Source of the DNA: an uncultured Prochlorococcus sp.
Lineage (GTDB): Bacteria > Cyanobacteriota > Cyanobacteriia > PCC-6307 > Cyanobiaceae
DNA: 47,755 bases
NCBI GenBank assembly: GCA_902596585.1
Contig: CACJUL010000008.1
Coordinates: 1 to 47,755, forward strand
Direction: 5' to 3'
Part shown: positions 4,642 to 42,466 of the stretch, one piece after another
How the letters are laid out: every line of letters begins with the position of its first letter
How positions within the stretch are numbered: the stretch's first letter is position 1
The notes under the pieces: model-generated
What the model was told of the DNA's origin: nothing
Databases searched by the model: none
Seen by the model: the letters and a program-made list of their open reading frames with translations, nothing else
Made by a program: the position numbers and the translations under genes

Positions 4642-7485
4642 ATGCTAAAACTTTTGTTGGGAGATCCGAATACACGAAAGTTAAAGCGCTATCAACCAAT
4701 AGTGGAAGAGATAAATTTTTTAGAAGAAGAAATTTCTCAATTAACTGATGATGAGCTTAGAAAAGAAACTCAAAATCTTAAAACAAAAATTTCAGCAGAA
4801 TTAGATGTTAAAAAACAAAAGGAACTTTTAGAAGAGTTTCTTCCTAGAGCTTTCGCAATTGTTAGAGAAGCAAGTAAACGTGTCCTTGATATGAGACATT
4901 TTGATGTTCAGTTAATAGGTGGGATGGTTTTACATGAGTGTCAGATTGCTGAGATGAAAACTGGAGAAGGAAAGACGTTAGTAGCAACATTACCTTGTTA
5001 TTTAAATGCTTTAACTGGGAAAGGGGTTCATGTAGTTACAGTGAATGATTATTTAGCTAGAAGGGATGCTGAGTGGATGGGACAAGTTCATCGTTTTTTA
5101 GGTTTGTCTGTTGGCTTGATTCAACAAGATATGAGCCCAGTTCAAAGAAAAAAAAATTATGCCTGTGATATAACATATGCTACAAATTCTGAATTAGGAT
5201 TTGATTATTTGAGAGATAATATGTCTACAGATATTAATGAAGTAGTACAAAGACAATTCAATTACTGTGTAATTGACGAGGTTGATTCAATATTGATCGA
5301 TGAAGCTAGAACACCTTTAATTATTTCTGGCCAAGTTGAAAGACCTCAAGAAAAATATCAAAAAGCCTCAGAATTAGCTTTGACATTACTCAAAGCAAAA
5401 GAATTAAGTAAAGATGGGATTGATCCTGAAGGAGATTATGAAGTTGATGAAAAGCAAAGGAGTTGTATATTAACAGATCAAGGTTTTGCTAAATGTGAGG
5501 ATTATTTGGGTGTTAGTGATTTATATAATCCTAAAGACCCTTGGGCACACTATATAACCAATGCTTTAAAAGCTAAAGAATTATTTATTAAGGATGTTAA
5601 TTACATTATTAAAAATAATGAGGCTGTGATAGTTGATGAATTTACTGGTCGGGTAATGCCAGGTAGACGTTGGAGTGACGGTCAGCATCAAGCAATAGAA
5701 GCAAAAGAAAATCTTAAAATTCAGCCTGAGACTCAAACATTAGCATCTATTACATATCAAAACTTCTTCCTCTTATATCCTGGTTTAGCTGGGATGACTG
5801 GCACTGCCAAAACTGAGGAGGTTGAGTTTGAAAAAACTTATAAATTAGAATCTACAGTAATACCTACTAATCAAATAAGGAAGAGACAAGATTGGGCTGA
5901 TCAAGTATTTAAGACAGAGATAGGTAAATGGAAAGCTGTCGCAAAAGAAACTGCACAAATTCATAGAGATGGTAGACCTGTTTTAGTTGGTACAACAAGT
6001 GTTGAAAAGAGTGAGTTATTAAGTTCACTCTTAACTGAAGAAAAAATCCCACATAATTTGTTAAACGCTAAACCAGAAAACGTTGAACGTGAGGCTGAAA
6101 TTGTCGCTCAAGCAGGAAGAGCAGGTGCTGTTACCATTGCGACAAATATGGCTGGTAGGGGAACGGATATCATTCTCGGCGGCAATAGTGACTATATGGC
6201 AAGACTTAAATTAAAAGAAATTTTAATGCCTTTGTTAGTTAAACCAGATAATGAGCATAAGCCACCAATCCCTAAACAAAGAAGTTCAAAAGCTAAAGGT
6301 GGTTTCTCTTCAAAAGTTGTTTCAAATTTGAAAAGAAATGCTCCAAGCAGTTCAACAAATCTTTTCCCCTGTAAATTAGATGAGGAAATTCAAAAAAGTC
6401 TCTCTCTTTTATCGAAAAAACTTGTTGATAATTGGGGAGATAGAAAACTTTCTGTTTTGGAGCTGGATGACAAGATTGCTACAGCCGGGGAAAAAGCCCC
6501 AACCGACGACATTTCGATCAAGCTTTTGAGAGAAGCTTTGTCGGACGTAAAAAAGGAATATGAAAAAGTTTTGGTTCATGAAGAAACAAAAGTCAGAGAA
6601 GCGGGTGGTTTACATGTTATAGGGACGGAAAGACATGAATCAAGAAGGGTGGATAACCAACTTAGAGGTAGATCTGGAAGACAAGGTGATCTTGGAAGTA
6701 CAAGATTCTTTTTGTCTTTAGAAGATAATTTGCTAAGGATTTTCGGCGGCGACAGAGTAGCAAATCTAATGAATGCATTTAGGGTAGACGAAGATATGCC
6801 TATTGAATCTGGAATGCTTACAAGATCTTTAGAAAGCGCGCAAAAAAAAGTAGAGACTTATTATTACGATATTAGAAAACAAGTTTTCGAATATGACGAG
6901 GTAATGAATAATCAAAGAAAAGCAGTATATAGCGAAAGACTTAGAGTCTTGAAAGGAATTGATTTAAAAAGGCAAGTAATAGGATATGGGGAGAGAACAA
7001 TGAGTGAAATTGTAGAGGCTTATATTAATCCTGATCTTCCTCCTGAAGAATGGAATATCGATCAACTAATTTCAAAAGTCAAAGAATTTATATATTTATT
7101 AGATGATCTAAAAGTCGAAGATATTAATCTATTGTCAATAGAAGAATTAAAAAATTATCTTCAAGAGCAGATGCGAATTGCATATGACTTAAAGGAATCA
7201 CAAATAGAAAAGATCCGTACAGGATTAATGAGAGAAGCCGAAAGATTTTTTATTTTGCAACAAATTGACAATTTATGGCGTGAACATCTGCAATCCATGG
7301 ATTCCTTAAGGGAATCAGTTGGTTTGAGAGGTTATGGCCAAAAAGATCCATTAATCGAATATAAAAATGAAGGGTATGATATGTTTCTTGAGATGATGAC
7401 TAATATGAGACGAAATGTTATTTACTCAATGTTTATGTTTCAGCCTAAAACTGAAACTGAAACTGAAAGTGATGATAAAAATTAA
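4642..7485 (+). CDS. secA: Preprotein translocase ATPase SecA
   Basis: 947 residues. SecA is the motor that pushes unfolded preproteins through SecYEG at the plasma and thylakoid membranes. Seen in order: Walker A (TGEGKT, residues 107-112), [13 protein letters not shown], the [20 protein letters not shown] segment, [22 protein letters not shown] (near 500-513) and [11 protein letters not shown]. About 140 residues lie between [16 protein letters not shown] (from 513) and [16 protein letters not shown] (from 654), a long insert of the cyanobacterial and chloroplast type. The C terminus ends after the helical wing in an acidic tail with no CxC...CH/CC zinc finger, also usual for cyanobacteria. 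Convergent with cysE, 8 bases apart. Confidence 0.97.
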
Positions 7486-7493
7486 TTTTAGAT

Positions 7494-8231
7494 TTAATCA
7501 TCACCAAGAAATTCTATAATTTCTTTGTCTTTAAGATTCTGAGCATCACCGAGTTTAGAAATATCAATAGATTCTGAGTTCGCTAGACATTGTAAAGTCT
7601 TTTGTAATTTAAGAATTTCATTTTCTAGAAAATCTATTCTATCCATTAAATTTTTTATCACATTAGCCTCTGCATCTGGTAAGGCAGAGTGAGCTAATGG
7701 GTTCACTTTTACTCCACTTTGGTGGACTACTCTGCCAGGAATTCCAACCACAGTACTATTTCCCTCTACATTACGAACAACTACTGAACCGGCGCCAATA
7801 CGAGTATTAGATCCAATAGTTATCGAACCGAGAACTTTTGCTCCTGCTCCAACAACAACGTTTTCCATTAAGGTTGGATGTCTTTTCCCATGACTTTTAC
7901 CAGTACCTCCTAAGGTTACTCCCTGGTAAAGTAGACAATTATTCCCTATTTCTGCTGTTTCTCCAATTACAACTCCCATTCCATGATCTATGAAAACCCT
8001 TCTACCAATTTTTGCTCCGGGATGTATTTCAATGCCAGTGATTGTTCTGTTAAGGTGACTTAAAAGACGAGGAATTAAAGGAATTTTTAATTTCCATAAT
8101 TTATGAGTAAATCTATGAATAACTATTGATTGAAAGCCTGGATAACAAAGGAAAATTTCTAATATTCCCCTTGCAGCAGGATCTCTCTCTTTAATAATGT
8201 CTATATCTGATTTAAAAGTTCTGAATATCAT
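7494..8231 (-). CDS. cysE: Serine O-acetyltransferase
   Basis: 245 residues. It makes O-acetylserine from serine and acetyl-CoA, the first step of cysteine synthesis. The N-terminal helices are followed by a left-handed beta-helix of hexapeptide repeats from about IHPGAKIGRRVFIDHGMG, through VVIGETAEIGNNCLLYQG and VTLGGTGKSHGKRHPTL, to VVVGAGAKVLGSITIGSNTR. The DHGMG histidine and the GKRHP segment are the conserved active-site region. The tail from residue ~195 is a short predicted helix (DRIDFLENEILKLQKTL). The regulator gene upstream ends 3 bases before its ATG, so the two are likely co-transcribed. Confidence 0.95.
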   Translation of the reverse strand: MIFRTFKSDIDIIKERDPAARGILEIFLCYPGFQSIVIHRFTHKLWKLKIPLIPRLLSHLNRTITGIEIHPGAKIGRRVFIDHGMGVVIGETAEIGNNCLLYQGVTLGGTGKSHGKRHPTLMENVVVGAGAKVLGSITIGSNTRIGAGSVVVRNVEGNSTVVGIPGRVVHQSGVKVNPLAHSALPDAEANVIKNLMDRIDFLENEILKLQKTLQCLANSESIDISKLGDAQNLKDKEIIEFLGDD

Positions 8232-8234
8232 GTT

Positions 8235-9221
8235 TTAATTTATAACTCCGATTTCTTTTTTTAATTGATTTATCGTTTCTGTACTTAAATAATTTTTTGC
8301 ACATATTATTTGAGGTAATCTCATAAGCTGAGAGCGATTTTTTAATAATGTGTTTTCTACAACTGATAAACTAGGTCCATCACATACGATGTGATTTGAA
8401 GCTTTTAAAAGGGATAGTAATCTACTGTTATTATCTGAGATTGCCGTCATCAGCATTAATTCACTACCACGCATGCTATGTATGATAACTTCAGCCGCCC
8501 TTAATAAGCCAGGGCTAATACTGACTATACCTACACAACTTCCAATACTTAATTCCTTCAGGATTTTCAGTTCCTTTTGAAAGTCGCTTAAGTCAACCGC
8601 AATAGCTCGAACCCCATGGTTTTTAGCAACTTTTTCTAGAGGCTGTAAAAAATATCTGCTTGTGACAATCGTGCCATTATTTGAACTACTCAAAACCTTT
8701 TCTAATTCTTCCATAGGAACAACTTCCACTGGGACAGTTACTTTTGGAGAGAGGTCTTCTGCTATGAGCATAGAAGCACCTATATCCTCTCTAGGAGTAC
8801 TGACTATAATTCTTGTGCCACATCTAATACGCCAATCAATTTCATTTGTTAATATTTCTCTCGTTTCTTGCAAAGTGCAGCCAAGACTTATGAAATTATC
8901 GACAGACTTCTTAGCCTCTTCATCTGGTGGTTTGCTCCCACTATCTTTTGAGTATACTGATTTTTTTAAATCCTTTTTAGTGAGATTATCTCTAACATAG
9001 ATACCTGATCCGGCCATCGCCTCAACAACCCCATCTATCTCAAGTTGTCTGTAAACTTTACTTATGGTGTTTCGATGAAGTCCAGTCTGCATTGCCAATT
9101 GCCTTGTGCTTGGAAGCCTATGACCTGGAGGATAATGTCTAGCTGCTATTGCAAAGCAAATTTGATTGTACAGTTGAGTAGATGCAGGTATATCACTTTC
9201 TTGTTGAATATGGAATCTCAC
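8235..9221 (-). CDS. GntR-family transcription regulator
   Basis: 328 residues. Residues ~1-78 form a GntR-type winged helix: PASTQLYNQICFAIAARHYP, LPSTRQLAMQTGLHRNTISK, VYRQLEIDGVVEAMAGSGIYV. The rest (~250 residues) is not a MocR-type aminotransferase, being too short and lacking the PLP lysine motif, and looks like an alpha/beta sensing domain (IIVSTPREDIGAS, GTIVTSRYFLQPLEKV). The ligand is unknown. It sits directly before cysE with a 3-base gap, which suggests a link to sulfur or amino-acid metabolism, but that is inference. A strong hairpin terminator separates it from infC upstream. Confidence 0.85.
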   Translation of the reverse strand: MRFHIQQESDIPASTQLYNQICFAIAARHYPPGHRLPSTRQLAMQTGLHRNTISKVYRQLEIDGVVEAMAGSGIYVRDNLTKKDLKKSVYSKDSGSKPPDEEAKKSVDNFISLGCTLQETREILTNEIDWRIRCGTRIIVSTPREDIGASMLIAEDLSPKVTVPVEVVPMEELEKVLSSSNNGTIVTSRYFLQPLEKVAKNHGVRAIAVDLSDFQKELKILKELSIGSCVGIVSISPGLLRAAEVIIHSMRGSELMLMTAISDNNSRLLSLLKASNHIVCDGPSLSVVENTLLKNRSQLMRLPQIICAKNYLSTETINQLKKEIGVIN

Positions 9222-35998: not shown

Positions 35999-36025
35999 TT
36001 TTTTTTCAATATAATTGAAAAAAAA
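35999..36025 (+). repeat. Perfect 12-base inverted repeat before glmS
   Basis: Eight T then CAAT, a 3-base spacer ATA, then ATTG and eight A. It ends 7 bases before the glmS ATG, so the RNA hairpin would cover the ribosome-binding region. It is not a simple plus-strand terminator because the T-tract is on the 5' side. Confidence 0.6.
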
Positions 36026-36032
36026 TTATTAT

Positions 36033-37928
36033 ATGTGCGGAATAGTTGCTGTAACTGGTTATAAAAAAGCTTTACCATTATTAATAAATGGTTTAGAAAA
36101 ACTTGAATATAGAGGTTACGATTCAGCAGGAATTGCAGTAATTAATCCTGAAACAAATTCTATTAGTTGTAACAAAGCTGAGGGAAAGCTTAATAATCTA
36201 AAAGTTAATCTTAATGAAAAGAATATTCCTGGAACTGTTGGTATAGCGCATACTCGTTGGGCCACTCATGGAAAACCAGAAGTTAAAAATGCTCATCCTC
36301 ATACTGATAGTTCAGGAGCAATTGCAGTTGTCCAGAATGGAATTATTGAAAATTTCCAAGAATTAAAAAATAAGTTAGAAAAAGAGGGTATAACTTTTAA
36401 TTCTGATACAGATACCGAGGTAATTCCTCATTTAATTCAAAGAGAATTAAATACATTAAGTAAGTTGAATCTTGAGAATAATGGTTCAACACTATTAGTA
36501 GCCGTAAGAAATGTAATATCTGATTTAGAAGGAAGTTATGCTTTGGCAGTTTTATGGGCTGGTGCTCCAACCTCTTTAGTAGTTGCAAGGAAACAAGCGC
36601 CTTTGATTATTGGTTTGGGTGAAGGAGAATTTATTTGTGCAAGTGATACTCCAGCAATTGCTAACTTTACGAATATTATTCTGCCAATGGAGGATGAGGA
36701 AATCGCTTTATTAACTCCTCTTGGAATTGAAATATACGACTCAAACAACGAAAGACAATATCGCAATCCTGTTTCCTTAACTGTCTCAGAGCAAATAATT
36801 GATAAGATGAATTTCAAACATTTCATGCTAAAAGAGATATACGATCAGCCGGAAACTGCAAAAAATTGGTTGAAAAATTATTTAAAACACAATTCAGAAA
36901 ATGGTCAATATCAAATCAACTACCCCTTTGATACAAAGTTTTTTGACTCAATCGAGAGAATTGAAATTATTGCTTGTGGGACAAGTAAACACGCTGCAAT
37001 GGTAGGTAGCTTTTTATTGGAGCAATTCTCAGGCATTCCTACAAATGTTTTTTATGCTAGCGAATTTCGTTACTCACCTCCTCCACTACTACCAAATACA
37101 TTAACTATTGGAGTGTCTCAATCCGGAGAAACTGCTGACACTATTGCAGCTATTGATATGGAAATCAAACGAAGGTCCGTCATTAAAGATAAAAAATTTA
37201 GACCTAATCTTATTGCAATAACCAATAGAAGAGAGAGCTCTATAGGAAGGCAAGTTACGAATATAATCGATATTTGTGCAGGAATAGAAGTTGGAGTTGC
37301 AGCAACAAAAACTTTTTTTGCACAATTACTTTCTTTTTATGGATTGGCAATACACTTTGCGCAGATTAAAGGTAGTCAAAGTCCTGATGAAATAGAAAAA
37401 TTAATAAAAGAACTTATAAAACTCCCTCCATTACTAGATGATCTTCTTGAAAAACATGATCAAACATCAGAAAAGCTTGCACATGACTTTTTTAATATTA
37501 AAGATGTAATTTTTTTAGGAAGAGGGATAAATTATCCCATTGCTCTTGAAGGAGCATTAAAACTAAAAGAAATTAGTTATATTCACGCCGCAGGATATCC
37601 AGCTGGTGAAATGAAACATGGTCCAATAGCATTGTTAGATAAAAAAGTTCCTGTAATTTCTATTGCTTCTCCCGGTGAAGTTTTTGATAAAGTTATTAGT
37701 AATGCTCAAGAAGCAAAAGCTAGAGATTCATATTTGATTGGAATTGCTCCTGAATGTAATGGCACTGAAATCTTTGATTATTTAATGAAAATTCCTTCTT
37801 CTAATGAATGGGTTTCTCCTTTATTGAACATAGTTCCTTTGCAATTATTGAGTTACCATATTGCCGCTCATAGAGGACTTGATGTAGATCAACCAAGAAA
37901 TTTAGCTAAAAGCGTCACGGTAGAATAG
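36033..37928 (+). CDS. glmS: Glutamine-fructose-6-phosphate aminotransferase
   Basis: 631 residues from the ATG at 36033. The open frame has an earlier TTG, but the enzyme needs Cys right after Met (MCGIVAVTG) as glutaminase nucleophile. It makes glucosamine-6-phosphate for peptidoglycan and lipopolysaccharide. N domain: LEYRGYDSAGIAV, HTRWATHGKPEVKNAHPHTD. Two SIS domains: IIACGTSKHAAMVGSFLLEQ, GVSQSGETADTIAAIDME, then AAGYPAGEMKHGPIALLDKK and the C-terminal DVDQPRNLAKSVTVE. No glmS ribozyme fits in the short leader. Confidence 0.97.
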   Translation: MCGIVAVTGYKKALPLLINGLEKLEYRGYDSAGIAVINPETNSISCNKAEGKLNNLKVNLNEKNIPGTVGIAHTRWATHGKPEVKNAHPHTDSSGAIAVVQNGIIENFQELKNKLEKEGITFNSDTDTEVIPHLIQRELNTLSKLNLENNGSTLLVAVRNVISDLEGSYALAVLWAGAPTSLVVARKQAPLIIGLGEGEFICASDTPAIANFTNIILPMEDEEIALLTPLGIEIYDSNNERQYRNPVSLTVSEQIIDKMNFKHFMLKEIYDQPETAKNWLKNYLKHNSENGQYQINYPFDTKFFDSIERIEIIACGTSKHAAMVGSFLLEQFSGIPTNVFYASEFRYSPPPLLPNTLTIGVSQSGETADTIAAIDMEIKRRSVIKDKKFRPNLIAITNRRESSIGRQVTNIIDICAGIEVGVAATKTFFAQLLSFYGLAIHFAQIKGSQSPDEIEKLIKELIKLPPLLDDLLEKHDQTSEKLAHDFFNIKDVIFLGRGINYPIALEGALKLKEISYIHAAGYPAGEMKHGPIALLDKKVPVISIASPGEVFDKVISNAQEAKARDSYLIGIAPECNGTEIFDYLMKIPSSNEWVSPLLNIVPLQLLSYHIAAHRGLDVDQPRNLAKSVTVE

Positions 37929-38008
37929 TTTTCATTTAAATCAAAACTTAAAAAAATTTTTAATAAAGATAACAAGTTTAATAACGCTAATATTTAATTT
38001 TTTGAAAA

Positions 38009-38821
38009 TTATTTTTGACTTTTATATAAATTATATTGCCACTTTAATTTCTGGTGATATTTAGCATCCATATTTTCTTTAAAAAAGACTATCTTTACTC
38101 TTTTTTCGTCATTTAATAATTCAAAGTCTGGAGTTTTTGAAAAATTAAATCTTGCTTTGTTTGGATTTTTCCCTGCTTTAATAGGTCTGTCTTCATAAAT
38201 ATTTTTTAGTAAACCGTTTGGCATACAAAGAAGGTTAATAACAAGTGTTTCTAGAGTATCTTTGTCATAAAGCATAGTTATAAAATAAGTTAAACAAGGT
38301 TTGGCCTTATCTTTGTCTGATTTGTTATAGATTGGGGGAAGACTAGATTTGTAGGGTCTCGAAATTTGATTTTCCTTACCTTTATTAACAAAAATATTTG
38401 CACTATAAGAATTTTGATTAGTGCCAATAAAAATATCTTTTGCAAAATCTCCAATATTATTTGCGCCTACCTTTTTATTTTGGGATAGTGTTGCACCTAC
38501 AGTTTTAAGATCTATATGAATGAATGCATCTTGAACTTCAAAAAACAGGTCACTTCCTACAGGAGCAGAGTTAGGAGTTCCAATTCCTTTGCCATTTAAA
38601 AGAGCATAAATAACTCTTTCTGCTCCAGTAGAAAAGTCACTAATATTTGTTCCATACAAACCTTTCCAATCTTCTGCAATTTTATCTCTAGTTTTTAGAC
38701 CTTCTAGAATTTCATCTAAAGTGAACTTTAAAAAATAATAATATTTATTCAAATATTTAAGTTCTAGTTCTTCTATTTCTCTAGTTATCTCGGCTTCTAA
38801 AGAGTATGATTTTGTGGGCAT
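38009..38821 (-). CDS. Type II restriction endonuclease, PD-(D/E)XK fold
   Basis: 270 residues. The catalytic core is visible as PVGSDLFFEVQDAFIHIDLK: Asp91 and Asp104-x-Lys106, a PD-(D/E)XK pattern. The first ~65 residues are helical. The specificity is not identifiable. It lies 204 bases after the stop of a DNA cytosine methyltransferase on the same strand, so the two form a type II restriction-modification pair; the endonuclease should cut the sequence that the methyltransferase protects. No homology search was possible, so the family name is left open. Confidence 0.7.
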   Translation of the reverse strand: MPTKSYSLEAEITREIEELELKYLNKYYYFLKFTLDEILEGLKTRDKIAEDWKGLYGTNISDFSTGAERVIYALLNGKGIGTPNSAPVGSDLFFEVQDAFIHIDLKTVGATLSQNKKVGANNIGDFAKDIFIGTNQNSYSANIFVNKGKENQISRPYKSSLPPIYNKSDKDKAKPCLTYFITMLYDKDTLETLVINLLCMPNGLLKNIYEDRPIKAGKNPNKARFNFSKTPDFELLNDEKRVKIVFFKENMDAKYHQKLKWQYNLYKSQK

Positions 38822-38848
38822 TTTTTGATACCAATGTGTTTTACATAA

Positions 38849-38875
38849 ATAACTTTATCCGACTAATAAAGTTAT
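38849..38875. repeat. Perfect 10-base inverted repeat in the M-R gap
   Basis: ATAACTTTAT (38849-38858), spacer ccgacta, ATAAAGTTAT (38866-38875). It lies 28 bases before the endonuclease start, where a promoter or operator for that gene would sit. No controller (C) protein gene is seen. Confidence 0.65.
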
Positions 38876-38919
38876 ATTTAGAATTTAAAGCGAAAACCCA
38901 AATTTATTTAAAATTACGT

Positions 38920-38946
38920 GCGAAAGACCAATTACTTTCGTTTTTT
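38920..38946 (+). terminator. Plus-strand terminator-like hairpin in the M-R gap
   Basis: CGAAAG (38921-38926), 8-base loop, CTTTCG (38935-38940), then six T. The stem is only 6 bp. It is oriented for plus-strand transcription although both flanking genes read on the minus strand. Confidence 0.45.
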
Positions 38947-39025
38947 AAAAAAACTTAAGATGAAAATTATCTACATCTCCCATAGTATGTTCATCTTTTT
39001 GTTTCTAATTCCATTTGACTGCTTT

Positions 39026-40234
39026 TTAAAGATATTGTTTTATACCAGAACCAATTTTGTGCGCTAAATCGACAGGTACTGCGTTTCCTATTTGTTTATA
39101 CATACTGCCAATGGCACCCTCAAAAACAAAGTCATCTGGAAAAGTTTGGAGGATTGCACACTCTCTTACACTCATTCTTCTTTTTCTATTTGGGTGAATT
39201 TCAGGTCCAGTCGCAGTAATTGTATCGCTTGGCTCCTCCCAATTATTAATACGTAATGATTGTTCAAAAACAATAGTTTTTTCTTCAAGTTCAGTTACTT
39301 GTTTATCGTATGTATCATCAAATTTTAATAATTTTTTTAATACCATCCAATCATCAGGATTAGGAATACAACCAGAGTTATTATCTTTTCTAAACCAATG
39401 ACCTGCCGTATGAGCATAACCAAAATATTCATCTATTTTTTTAGTTGACCATCCACTATCTTTTCTCCACTTTTTTAGATAATCACAAATATCAAACTGA
39501 TTTACTTTATGTTTTCTTCCCCAAAACTTATCGCTTACATTGGTTCTTGCGACGTGATTATAAATAGTTTTGTTGCCTAACTTAAAGGGTTTATCCCTTG
39601 TTCTTATATTCGCTAAGTGTTTAAGAACTTCTTGTGTTGTTACGTAGGGTTTCAATATGGGGTTAAATAAATCATTCTTTAGACCATGGCTGTATTTAGG
39701 AAAGGGGTTTTCTTTGCCAATTCTGTTGCCAATAATAAATACTCTTTCTCTGTGTTGGGGAATTCCATAATCACTCGCCATTAAAAGTCTGTAGTCAACC
39801 TTGTAGCCTATATTTTCGAAATCCCTCAAAATCATCTCAATGACATTTCCTTTTTCTAAAGAAAGAAGACCTTTTACATTCTCTGCAACAAAAAACTTTG
39901 GTTTTTTATCTTTAAGAATCCTCAACATCTCTAGATATAAAAAATTTCTCTCATCTTTCATGCTTCTCTTAGTATTTGCTACAGAAAAACCTTGACAAGG
40001 AAATCCGCCTAAAAGTACGTCAAAGTTTGATGGTATTTCTTTACTTGGTATTTTTGTGATGTCCCCTAGAACTATATGATTACCAATATTTCTCGAATAA
40101 GTCTTTACGGAATCAGCATTAAAATCATTTGCCCATAAGATATCAAAACCAGCATGCTTAAAACCTAAATCTAATCCTCCGCATCCAGAAAATAGTCCAA
40201 CAACAGAAGGTTGTTTTTCTGAAGATCTTTTCAT
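39026..40234 (-). CDS. DNA (cytosine-5) methyltransferase
   Basis: 402 residues. Transfers methyl from SAM to cytosine C5. Motif I VVGLFSGCGGLDLGFKHAGF (residues 11-30), motif IV GGFPCQGFSVAN with nucleophile Cys80, motif VI AENVKGLL, motif VIII QHRERVFIIG, motif IX MSVRECAILQTFPDDFVF and motif X QIGNAVPVDLA are all present and in order. The target-recognition region (~200-330) contains AHTAGHWFRKDNNSGCIPNP and DDWMVLKKLLKFDDTYD. Partner endonuclease lies downstream. No other cytosine methyltransferase is in the window. Likely horizontally acquired, inferred from cassette nature and position. Confidence 0.93.
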   Translation of the reverse strand: MKRSSEKQPSVVGLFSGCGGLDLGFKHAGFDILWANDFNADSVKTYSRNIGNHIVLGDITKIPSKEIPSNFDVLLGGFPCQGFSVANTKRSMKDERNFLYLEMLRILKDKKPKFFVAENVKGLLSLEKGNVIEMILRDFENIGYKVDYRLLMASDYGIPQHRERVFIIGNRIGKENPFPKYSHGLKNDLFNPILKPYVTTQEVLKHLANIRTRDKPFKLGNKTIYNHVARTNVSDKFWGRKHKVNQFDICDYLKKWRKDSGWSTKKIDEYFGYAHTAGHWFRKDNNSGCIPNPDDWMVLKKLLKFDDTYDKQVTELEEKTIVFEQSLRINNWEEPSDTITATGPEIHPNRKRRMSVRECAILQTFPDDFVFEGAIGSMYKQIGNAVPVDLAHKIGSGIKQYL

Positions 40235-40372
40235 AATTATTTGCTTCGACCTTAGATAAAAAATTAAGTGATCTAAATATAACCTCTAATAAAAAAACAA
40301 CATATAAAATTTACTTTTAATTTGTCTTGGTACTTTAACTTTATAGAAAATTTTAATTTTTTATCCAGATAT

Positions 40373-40912
40373 CTATATTTCTAGAAGCCCCTTTGGGGGA
40401 TCGATAATAAGAAAATTATTTTTTATATCAACTACTGGCACTATTTCTTTAACAAAGGGTATTAGCACTTTTTTTTGATTTTTAAATAGTTCAATAATAA
40501 GTAAATTATTCTTTTCATTCTCCAAGTCAAGAACTTTTCCAATTATTTTTAATTCATCATTTTCTAAAATCTTGACTTGTAAATTAATAAGCTCCAACAA
40601 GTGAAATTCTTCTTTTTTTAACTTTGGAAGTTGATTGGTTTCTACAAGAATTTTATAATTTTTAAGTTGCTCTGCATTATTTCTAGTAGTTATTCCTTCA
40701 AACTTGATGATGAAGGTTTCTTTCCCAGGTTGTTTGTAGCCAGAGATAAGTTTAATTTTTGCAGGGGGTTCATTGTCTTTTTGCAACCATCTTATTCCAG
40801 GCTTTAAAAATCTTTCTTCAAAATCACTAAGAGATTTAACCTTTACTTGGCCATTAATTCCATGACATGATGTTATTAATCCAACAATCAACCATTCATT
40901 TTTATTTATCAT
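40373..40912 (-). CDS. rimM: 16S rRNA processing protein RimM
   Basis: 179 residues. It binds the 30S head (ribosomal protein S19) during maturation. N-terminal RimM domain: [37 protein letters not shown] and [20 protein letters not shown]; a linker leads to a PRC-barrel: [39 protein letters not shown]. Ends in [13 protein letters not shown], a usual RimM C terminus. Divergent from the ndhS-like gene with a 24-base gap. The 138-base gap to the methyltransferase shows nothing notable. Confidence 0.94.
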
Positions 40913-42291: not shown

Positions 42292-42314
42292 TATTACTCC
42301 AAAAATCATCTATT

Positions 42315-42388
<74 letters not shown>

Positions 42389-42466
42389 TTAAAGTAATAA
42401 ACTATATGTAGTATATGTGCAAAGTTTCTACTCTCTAGCTAGCGTATAGATAGTAATAAATCTTTT

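Follow-up and report, generated by a model that had tools for sequence, protein, structure and literature searches.

A rare type II restriction-modification cassette of Prochlorococcus with a conserved cytosine-5 methyltransferase and an apparently exchanged BglI/SfiI-like endonuclease

The two enzymes of a restriction system are usually regarded as a matched pair that moves as a unit, and in the hpyIIIR/hrgA and iceA1/iceA2 loci of Helicobacter pylori the methyltransferase stays in place while the endonuclease gene alternates with a gene that is not known as an endonuclease. The strain-dependent identity of the gene beside the methyltransferase at these loci (hpyIIIR/hrgA and iceA1/iceA2-hpyIM) is described in excerpts of PMC4687069 and PMC2749054, and we regard them as partial precedents for the locus reported here, which differs in that endonucleases of one fold family appear to replace each other. 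More than one endonuclease gene per system is also found in LlaJI, for which the available portion of PMC11779793 gives two endonuclease subunits and two methyltransferases; the LlaJI endonuclease is heterodimeric, whereas in the double loci described below there is one methyltransferase, and endonucleases are also found singly. For type II systems in general, a review describes, in its available part, isoschizomers as often having diverged from a single enzyme, and exchange of genes as a common event (PMC4081073). Among the open-licence PubMed Central matches listed, there was no report of the present methyltransferase family or of endonuclease exchange beside a kept methyltransferase.

At the level of the individual proteins, the closest described relatives are the BglI endonuclease of Bacillus globigii, which is similar in fold and in its E-D-D-K catalytic site (residues as given in an excerpt of PMC548270), and SfiI, which is similar in fold and is a tetramer that cuts GGCCNNNNNGGCC (excerpt of PMC548270), together with the HaeIII methyltransferase, the best solved-structure match of the methyltransferase studied here. 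M.BglI makes N4-methylcytosine in GCCNNNNNGGC (PMC4882945), whereas the partner methyltransferase here is of the C5 class, and the cassette is therefore not the BglI system as a whole.

The cassette lies between glmS and rimM (Table 1) in the window, the 47,755-nucleotide stretch of Prochlorococcus DNA that we analysed. A sequence-only reading had proposed a complete type II restriction-modification cassette at this position, with a PD-(D/E)XK nuclease on the same strand as the methyltransferase and neither tRNA nor repeat at its borders. The coordinates of both open reading frames, their common strand and their lengths (402 and 270 aa) were confirmed, and sequence and predicted fold together support a type II restriction-modification cassette of adjacent, intact methyltransferase and PD-(D/E)XK endonuclease genes. 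The borders were checked for mobile-element origin by way of tRNAs and repeats: no repeat pair brackets the cassette (a search of positions 37850-40480 found imperfect, mostly AT-rich repeats only), and the one tRNA gene of the window, for tRNA-Arg, is about 2 kb away. The assembly to which the window belongs is 1.17 Mb in 54 contigs and 72% complete, and the presence of a close copy of the cassette in a second genome (G110; 99% complete, 1% contamination) speaks against an assembly artefact. Neither gene is a mere chance open frame, since both pass curated profile cut-offs and have dN/dS ratios well below 1 when compared with that copy.

Table 1. Features of the cassette and its surroundings in the window
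Feature	Position	Strand	Basis or remark
glmS flank	36015..37928	+	SIS and glutamine-amidotransferase (GATase) domains
BglI/SfiI-fold restriction endonuclease (predicted), 270 aa, group A	38009..38821	-	PF14562, structure model, conserved residues
Methyltransferase-endonuclease spacer, 204 bp	38822..39025	-	
Hairpin, upstream of the endonuclease gene	38847..38876	-	-8.0 kcal/mol, computed without a control
Possible relic of a group C endonuclease gene (5′ end)	38958..39004	-	Alignment with the beginning of the L030 endonuclease gene, including its start codon
C5-cytosine DNA methyltransferase (predicted), 402 aa	39026..40234	-	PF00145, TIGR00675, motifs
rimM-methyltransferase intergenic stretch	40235..40372	-	Close similarity among window, L019 and L020
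rimM flank	40373..40912	-	RimM and PRC domains
tRNA-Arg	42314-42389		Sole tRNA of the window, about 2 kb from the cassette

For the methyltransferase, a PF00145 match far above its cut-off (1e-84; 285.2 bits against 22) together with the motifs PCQ at residue 79 and ENV at 118 places the protein in the C5-cytosine class, to which a TIGR00675 match (1.9e-77) and a QHRERVF motif at 160 can be added. The HaeIII methyltransferase is matched at 1.3e-56, but most of residues 187-320 have no aligned counterpart in it, so that the HaeIII target GGCC is not transferable. We take region 175-330 to be the recognition domain, as in other C5 methyltransferases. This region is 94-96% identical within the Prochlorococcus set and 97% and 99% identical in two pairs from other marine lineages (L022/L023 and L065/L093, introduced below). 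Across 68 methyltransferases, blocks 221-340 have a mean identity to the window protein of 0.71-0.83, equal to or above most of the catalytic core, and block 181-220 is variable (0.37-0.40). We infer that the swapped sets probably have a common methyltransferase target, a conserved region being an indication of an identical target and not a proof of one.

The endonuclease family had not been recognised in the sequence-only reading; the assignment as a PD-(D/E)XK nuclease stood, and the family can now be identified as BglI/SfiI-like. The protein matches PF14562 (Endonuc_BglI; 5.5e-9, with 36.1 bits where the cut-off is 25), and its AlphaFold2 model (pLDDT 92.0, pTM 0.91) retrieved BglI first and SfiI next with Foldseek (9.3e-11 and 3.1e-7). 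A second look at these matches with VIA-align gave Z 19.7 for BglI (219 residues, 2.7 A, 20% sequence identity), 18.8 for SfiI and then 8.4 for NaeI. When 68 relatives were aligned, D104 and K106 proved invariant, and conservation was 90% or more at E68 and D91; these four residues were equated with the BglI catalytic residues E87, D116, D142 and K144 (listed in an excerpt of PMC548270), the D-x-K part from the aligned profile match and E68 and D91 by conservation and order. The alternative raised with the original proposal, that the 270-residue protein has a fold without a nuclease site, is contradicted by the modelled BglI fold and the kept catalytic positions: the nuclease site is present in the sequence, and the protein would on this basis be expected to cleave DNA.

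Similarity to BglI is nevertheless distant at the sequence level. The endonuclease family profile matches the BglI sequence only weakly among solved structures (E 0.026), and the BglI Pfam model matches 5 of the 68 family endonucleases at E 0.01, the window's being above the cut-off. A phmmer search of solved structures with the single endonuclease gave one match, an unrelated viral protein at E 1.8; NCBIfam and PADLOC gave no endonuclease match, and of 25 pattern matches to endonuclease relatives in viral contigs none was confirmed. The E68 position is Q in the enzymes of L020 and L021 and in the second enzyme of L076, which also has E in place of D104. The L020 enzyme, a group B endonuclease, was modelled with the same fold (pLDDT 89.4; Foldseek 2.6e-6 to BglI; Z 17.2 for BglI, 17.0 for SfiI, then 9.3 for SwaI). 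Group B and C endonucleases carry extra residues after a P-N-G motif, in the part of the chain where BglI makes its base contacts (K266, D268, R277 and R279 in an excerpt of PMC548270), and a different recognition in these groups is therefore possible.

The cassette is rare in the genus. Of 266 genus genomes, 4 carry the endonuclease (1 among the 87 high-quality genomes), and a methyltransferase search at E 1e-40 picked out the same four; some C5 methyltransferase match was found in 29 same-genus genomes within a family-wide draw of 400. Besides the window, the carriers are L019 (AG-402-O16), L020 (scB241_528O2) and L030 (AG-349-B16), taken as G110, G035 and G200. All four cassettes adjoin glmS and three also reach rimM; the L030 contig starts inside the methyltransferase gene. 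Comparing the glmS-rimM gap across strains, as had been suggested, showed the cassette to be the exception: among 131 hand-picked genomes with both flanks listed (the flank searches matched 207 and 206 genomes), the gap was at most 80 bp in 122, with a median of 37. The nine wider gaps hold the cassette in three cases (2250-2450 bp) and other content in six (222-1282 bp). Two other Prochlorococcus genomes have different genes in the gap: an open reading frame in one (L107 913-1791, genome G042) has a sub-threshold ICEA match (5.9e-5), and open reading frames in the other (L106 859-1590, G119) match DUF3427 and NOV_C. It may be that this junction serves as a minor site of insertion for defence-like genes.

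Comparison of the four carriers points to a methyltransferase that was kept and an endonuclease that was replaced between strains. The methyltransferase proteins are 93.9-96.3% identical, and their DNA (91.6-93.3% for the three full-length pairs, 89.5-90.4% for the partial L030 copy) is about as similar as that of rimM (91.3-93.7%). The endonucleases, in contrast, fall into three groups that are 29-39% identical to each other. In local alignments, the window's enzyme is 79.0% identical to that of L019 over 257 aa, 33.0% to L020 over 185 aa and 37.1% to L030 over 194 aa; L019 is 37.2% identical to L020 over 164 aa and 38.6% to L030 over 197 aa, and L020 and L030 are 29.0% identical over 193 aa. 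Their lengths are 270, 267, 331 and 372 aa. With the DNA of the carriers placed side by side, similarity stops at about the methyltransferase stop codon and returns at the end of glmS. Closer relatives of the divergent enzymes occur outside the genus: the L020 endonuclease is 46% identical to that of SAR86 locus L021, against 33% to the window's, and the group C enzyme of L030 has its closest relative in the second endonuclease of the flavobacterial locus L037 (47% over 355 aa). For the window and L019, dS of the endonuclease (0.373) is comparable to that of the methyltransferase (0.448), glmS (0.358) and rimM (0.254), and this pair of endonucleases therefore seems to have been inherited along with the locus; the dN/dS ratio is 0.367 in the endonuclease against 0.047 in the methyltransferase.

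The spacer between the two genes varies as well, from 204 bp in the window to 71 bp in L030, 11 bp in L019 and none in L020. Within the window's spacer, one stretch resembles the beginning of the L030 endonuclease gene (Table 1). Its score was reached by 6 of 5000 shuffles when compared with the three Prochlorococcus 5′ ends, a test chosen post hoc, and by 23 of 2000 when compared with the whole L030 gene; against all 67 genes, the best score was no better than that of shuffles (86 of 200). As a control, 3 of 1869 window pieces reached the score, some of which may overlap the spacer itself. The alignment is thus no more than suggestive of a fossil group C endonuclease. The spacer also contains a hairpin, which could be a terminator, an attenuator or a remnant.

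In one genome collection we confirmed 156 relatives of the methyltransferase, of which 80 were kept, with 7 more from viral contigs. The 80 include SAR86, Pelagibacter, Bacteroidota, Bacillota, candidate phyla and archaea; in searches of Pelagibacter and SAR86 genomes, 3 of 397 and 3 of 107, respectively, gave a match. Upon inspection of close pairs, we found the Prochlorococcus pattern again. SAR86 loci L022 and L023 are 98.3% identical in the methyltransferase and mostly 98-99% in their common flanking open reading frames, yet only 36.7% in the endonuclease (over 297 aa), and L024 and L025, which have syntenic flanks, have methyltransferases of 88.2% and endonucleases of 37.0% identity (over 146 aa). 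For Pelagibacter L065 and L093 the values are 96.4% for the methyltransferase, mostly 85-98% for the flanks and 29.6% for the endonuclease (over 125 aa). There are also counter-examples, in that many pairs from other groups have methyltransferases of 80-90% and endonucleases of 55-88% identity.

The downstream open reading frames of 70 loci formed one cluster, from which L038 and L047 were excluded as cut by contig ends, leaving 68 rows; L076 and a few others entered through the profile scan only. The methyltransferase tree of these rows was obtained with a careful search, and the endonuclease tree is a quick form with long branches, for which reason the endonuclease groups rest on BLAST score and coverage. 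On the methyltransferase tree, the endonuclease group changes 17 times in the 68 rows, compared with 21-27 times in 300 shuffles. The 17 rows from Prochlorococcus, SAR86, PS1 and Pelagibacter account for 9 changes (8-11 when shuffled), which is no better than random, while the other 51 rows have 8 (12-15 when shuffled), a clear association of endonuclease group with methyltransferase tree. Since the rows outside these marine groups follow the methyltransferase tree and many pairs from other groups keep endonucleases of 55-88% identity, endonuclease exchange is not general in the family. The orientation of the endonuclease gene changes only 5 times in the 68 rows (16-27 when shuffled) and once in the 17 (2-4 when shuffled), which suggests that orientation tracks the methyltransferase lineage while the endonuclease is exchanged.

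An endonuclease profile match was found in 75 of 88 loci, although 68 of these built the profile and match by construction; the 13 without a match include some on short or cut contigs. Six of the 75 loci (L035, L037, L058, L076, L080 and L090) carry two divergent endonucleases beside one methyltransferase, each at least 227 aa long, 24-38% identical to one another and made up of one group A member and one other. The double matches in L044 and L072 reflect a broken gene and a fragment instead. Across the double-hit loci, the catalytic residues are conserved with the exception of the second L076 enzyme, and, if all are active, one methyltransferase would guard against both endonucleases. Members of groups A, B, C, E and F were each found as sole endonuclease at some locus; those of group D were observed solely alongside group A, as the second enzyme of the locus (L058 4108-4791, L076 9181-9867 and L090 7852-8583).

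A number of relatives have other neighbours. A Mrr-type endonuclease gene follows the methyltransferase in L036 (7131-7985) and L044 (7152-8015; Mrr_cat 1.2e-26 and 1.7e-26, respectively), and in L044 it is followed in turn by a group A endonuclease broken into two open reading frames. In L098 and L103 the methyltransferase match is split over two open reading frames, which lie upstream of related open reading frames of about 420 aa (7855-9117 and 7857-9110), that of L098 with an HNH domain. The most distant viral-contig relative, L104 (7251-7991; 46.9%), adjoins a HaeIII-family endonuclease (7.2e-113). Another viral contig, L099, encodes a relative 86.7% identical (5926-7215) among phage-like genes (single-strand binding, Erf-like annealing, replication and minor tail proteins), and the 9.8 kb covered, out of 29.9 kb, contain no endonuclease match; by eye, the first residues of this protein resemble the start of another kind of methyltransferase. 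It possibly serves the self-protection of a phage. A phage collection searched at 1e-60 gave no match, and a search for named relatives gave one plasmid match, from Vagococcus lutrae, annotated as a methyltransferase and a hypothetical protein.

Depletion of the methylated motif in host DNA had been put forward as a further check, and it gave no signal in the part of the three carrier genomes that was compared (388,923 bases, against 379,968 bases of two non-carriers). Among 687 gapped and ungapped palindromes the lowest P was 0.01, which is without significance once the 687 tests are allowed for. GGCC, GCNGC, GCN7GC and other named sites showed no clear depletion in the three carriers relative to the two non-carriers, and GCCNNNNNGGC occurred too few times in carriers and controls for comparison.

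We give a probability of about 0.75 to the reading that this is a type II system in which the methyltransferase is conserved and protects the host against BglI-fold endonucleases that are exchanged from a pool. Judging from family and fold, the C5 methyltransferase would mark its target cytosine throughout the genome, and the endonuclease would cut incoming DNA without the mark, such as that of phages; a role in phage defence may be expected from the family. The methyltransferase, and presumably its target, would stay fixed while the adjacent endonuclease is replaced by divergent members of the same fold. As the host is already methylated, any endonuclease with all its sites covered could enter without killing it, and the methyltransferase already in residence would leave the site open to a change of endonuclease. 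Replacement may plausibly pass through a stage with two endonucleases, the original one being lost after another has been gained, and loci with two endonucleases do exist. A wider proposal, that a single fixed-target methyltransferase family of bacteria and archaea shields at least seven BglI-fold groups which cut differently inside the methylated set, allowing hosts to change or widen their restriction by swapping or adding endonucleases without remethylation, is possible but rather doubtful.

Ordinary fast divergence could in principle produce similar identities, if the endonucleases of shared loci were fast-changing orthologues beside a constrained methyltransferase and nothing had been replaced. 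The faster evolution of the endonuclease in the window/L019 comparison and the membership of all the endonucleases in one fold family are both in keeping with this; the nearly identical flanks of L022 and L023, the closer relationship of the L020 enzyme to SAR86 enzymes and of the L030 enzyme to the second L037 enzyme than of either to the window's, and the differing endonuclease lengths nonetheless make it unlikely. If the methyltransferase were instead the selected part, through regulation or protection from other restriction, the endonucleases would be decaying passengers, as the broken gene of L044 and the loci without an endonuclease match, L099 among them, might suggest. We consider this quite improbable given the constraint on the endonuclease (dN/dS 0.367 over a dS of 0.373), the invariant catalytic D and K positions in 68 sequences and the match retained in 75 of 88 loci.

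Exchange of endonucleases under a kept methyltransferase must also be weighed against the idea that the different endonucleases are subunits of heteromeric enzymes. LlaJI acts as a heterodimer (excerpt of PMC11779793), and every one of the six double loci pairs a group A member with one other; five of the groups occur as sole endonuclease, however, and LlaJI has two methyltransferases where these loci have one, which renders the idea very improbable. Chimeras formed during assembly or amplification of single-cell genomes, which some carriers resemble by our reading of their record names, would hardly place the change at gene ends with flanks that continue correctly, nor recur in three lineages of two phyla, and one carrier is 99% complete with 1% contamination; their likelihood is close to negligible.

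Under the exchange reading, the protective half of a restriction system would be kept and the cutting half exchanged in Prochlorococcus, SAR86 and Pelagibacter, all of them major groups in surface ocean waters. Should the endonucleases have one common target, the question becomes what drives their replacement, and inhibitors encoded by phages and directed at individual endonucleases are one example; should they cut different sites inside the methylated set, exchange would be a cheap way to change restriction. Sequence recognition could also be studied with this family, which is rich in divergent BglI-fold enzymes.
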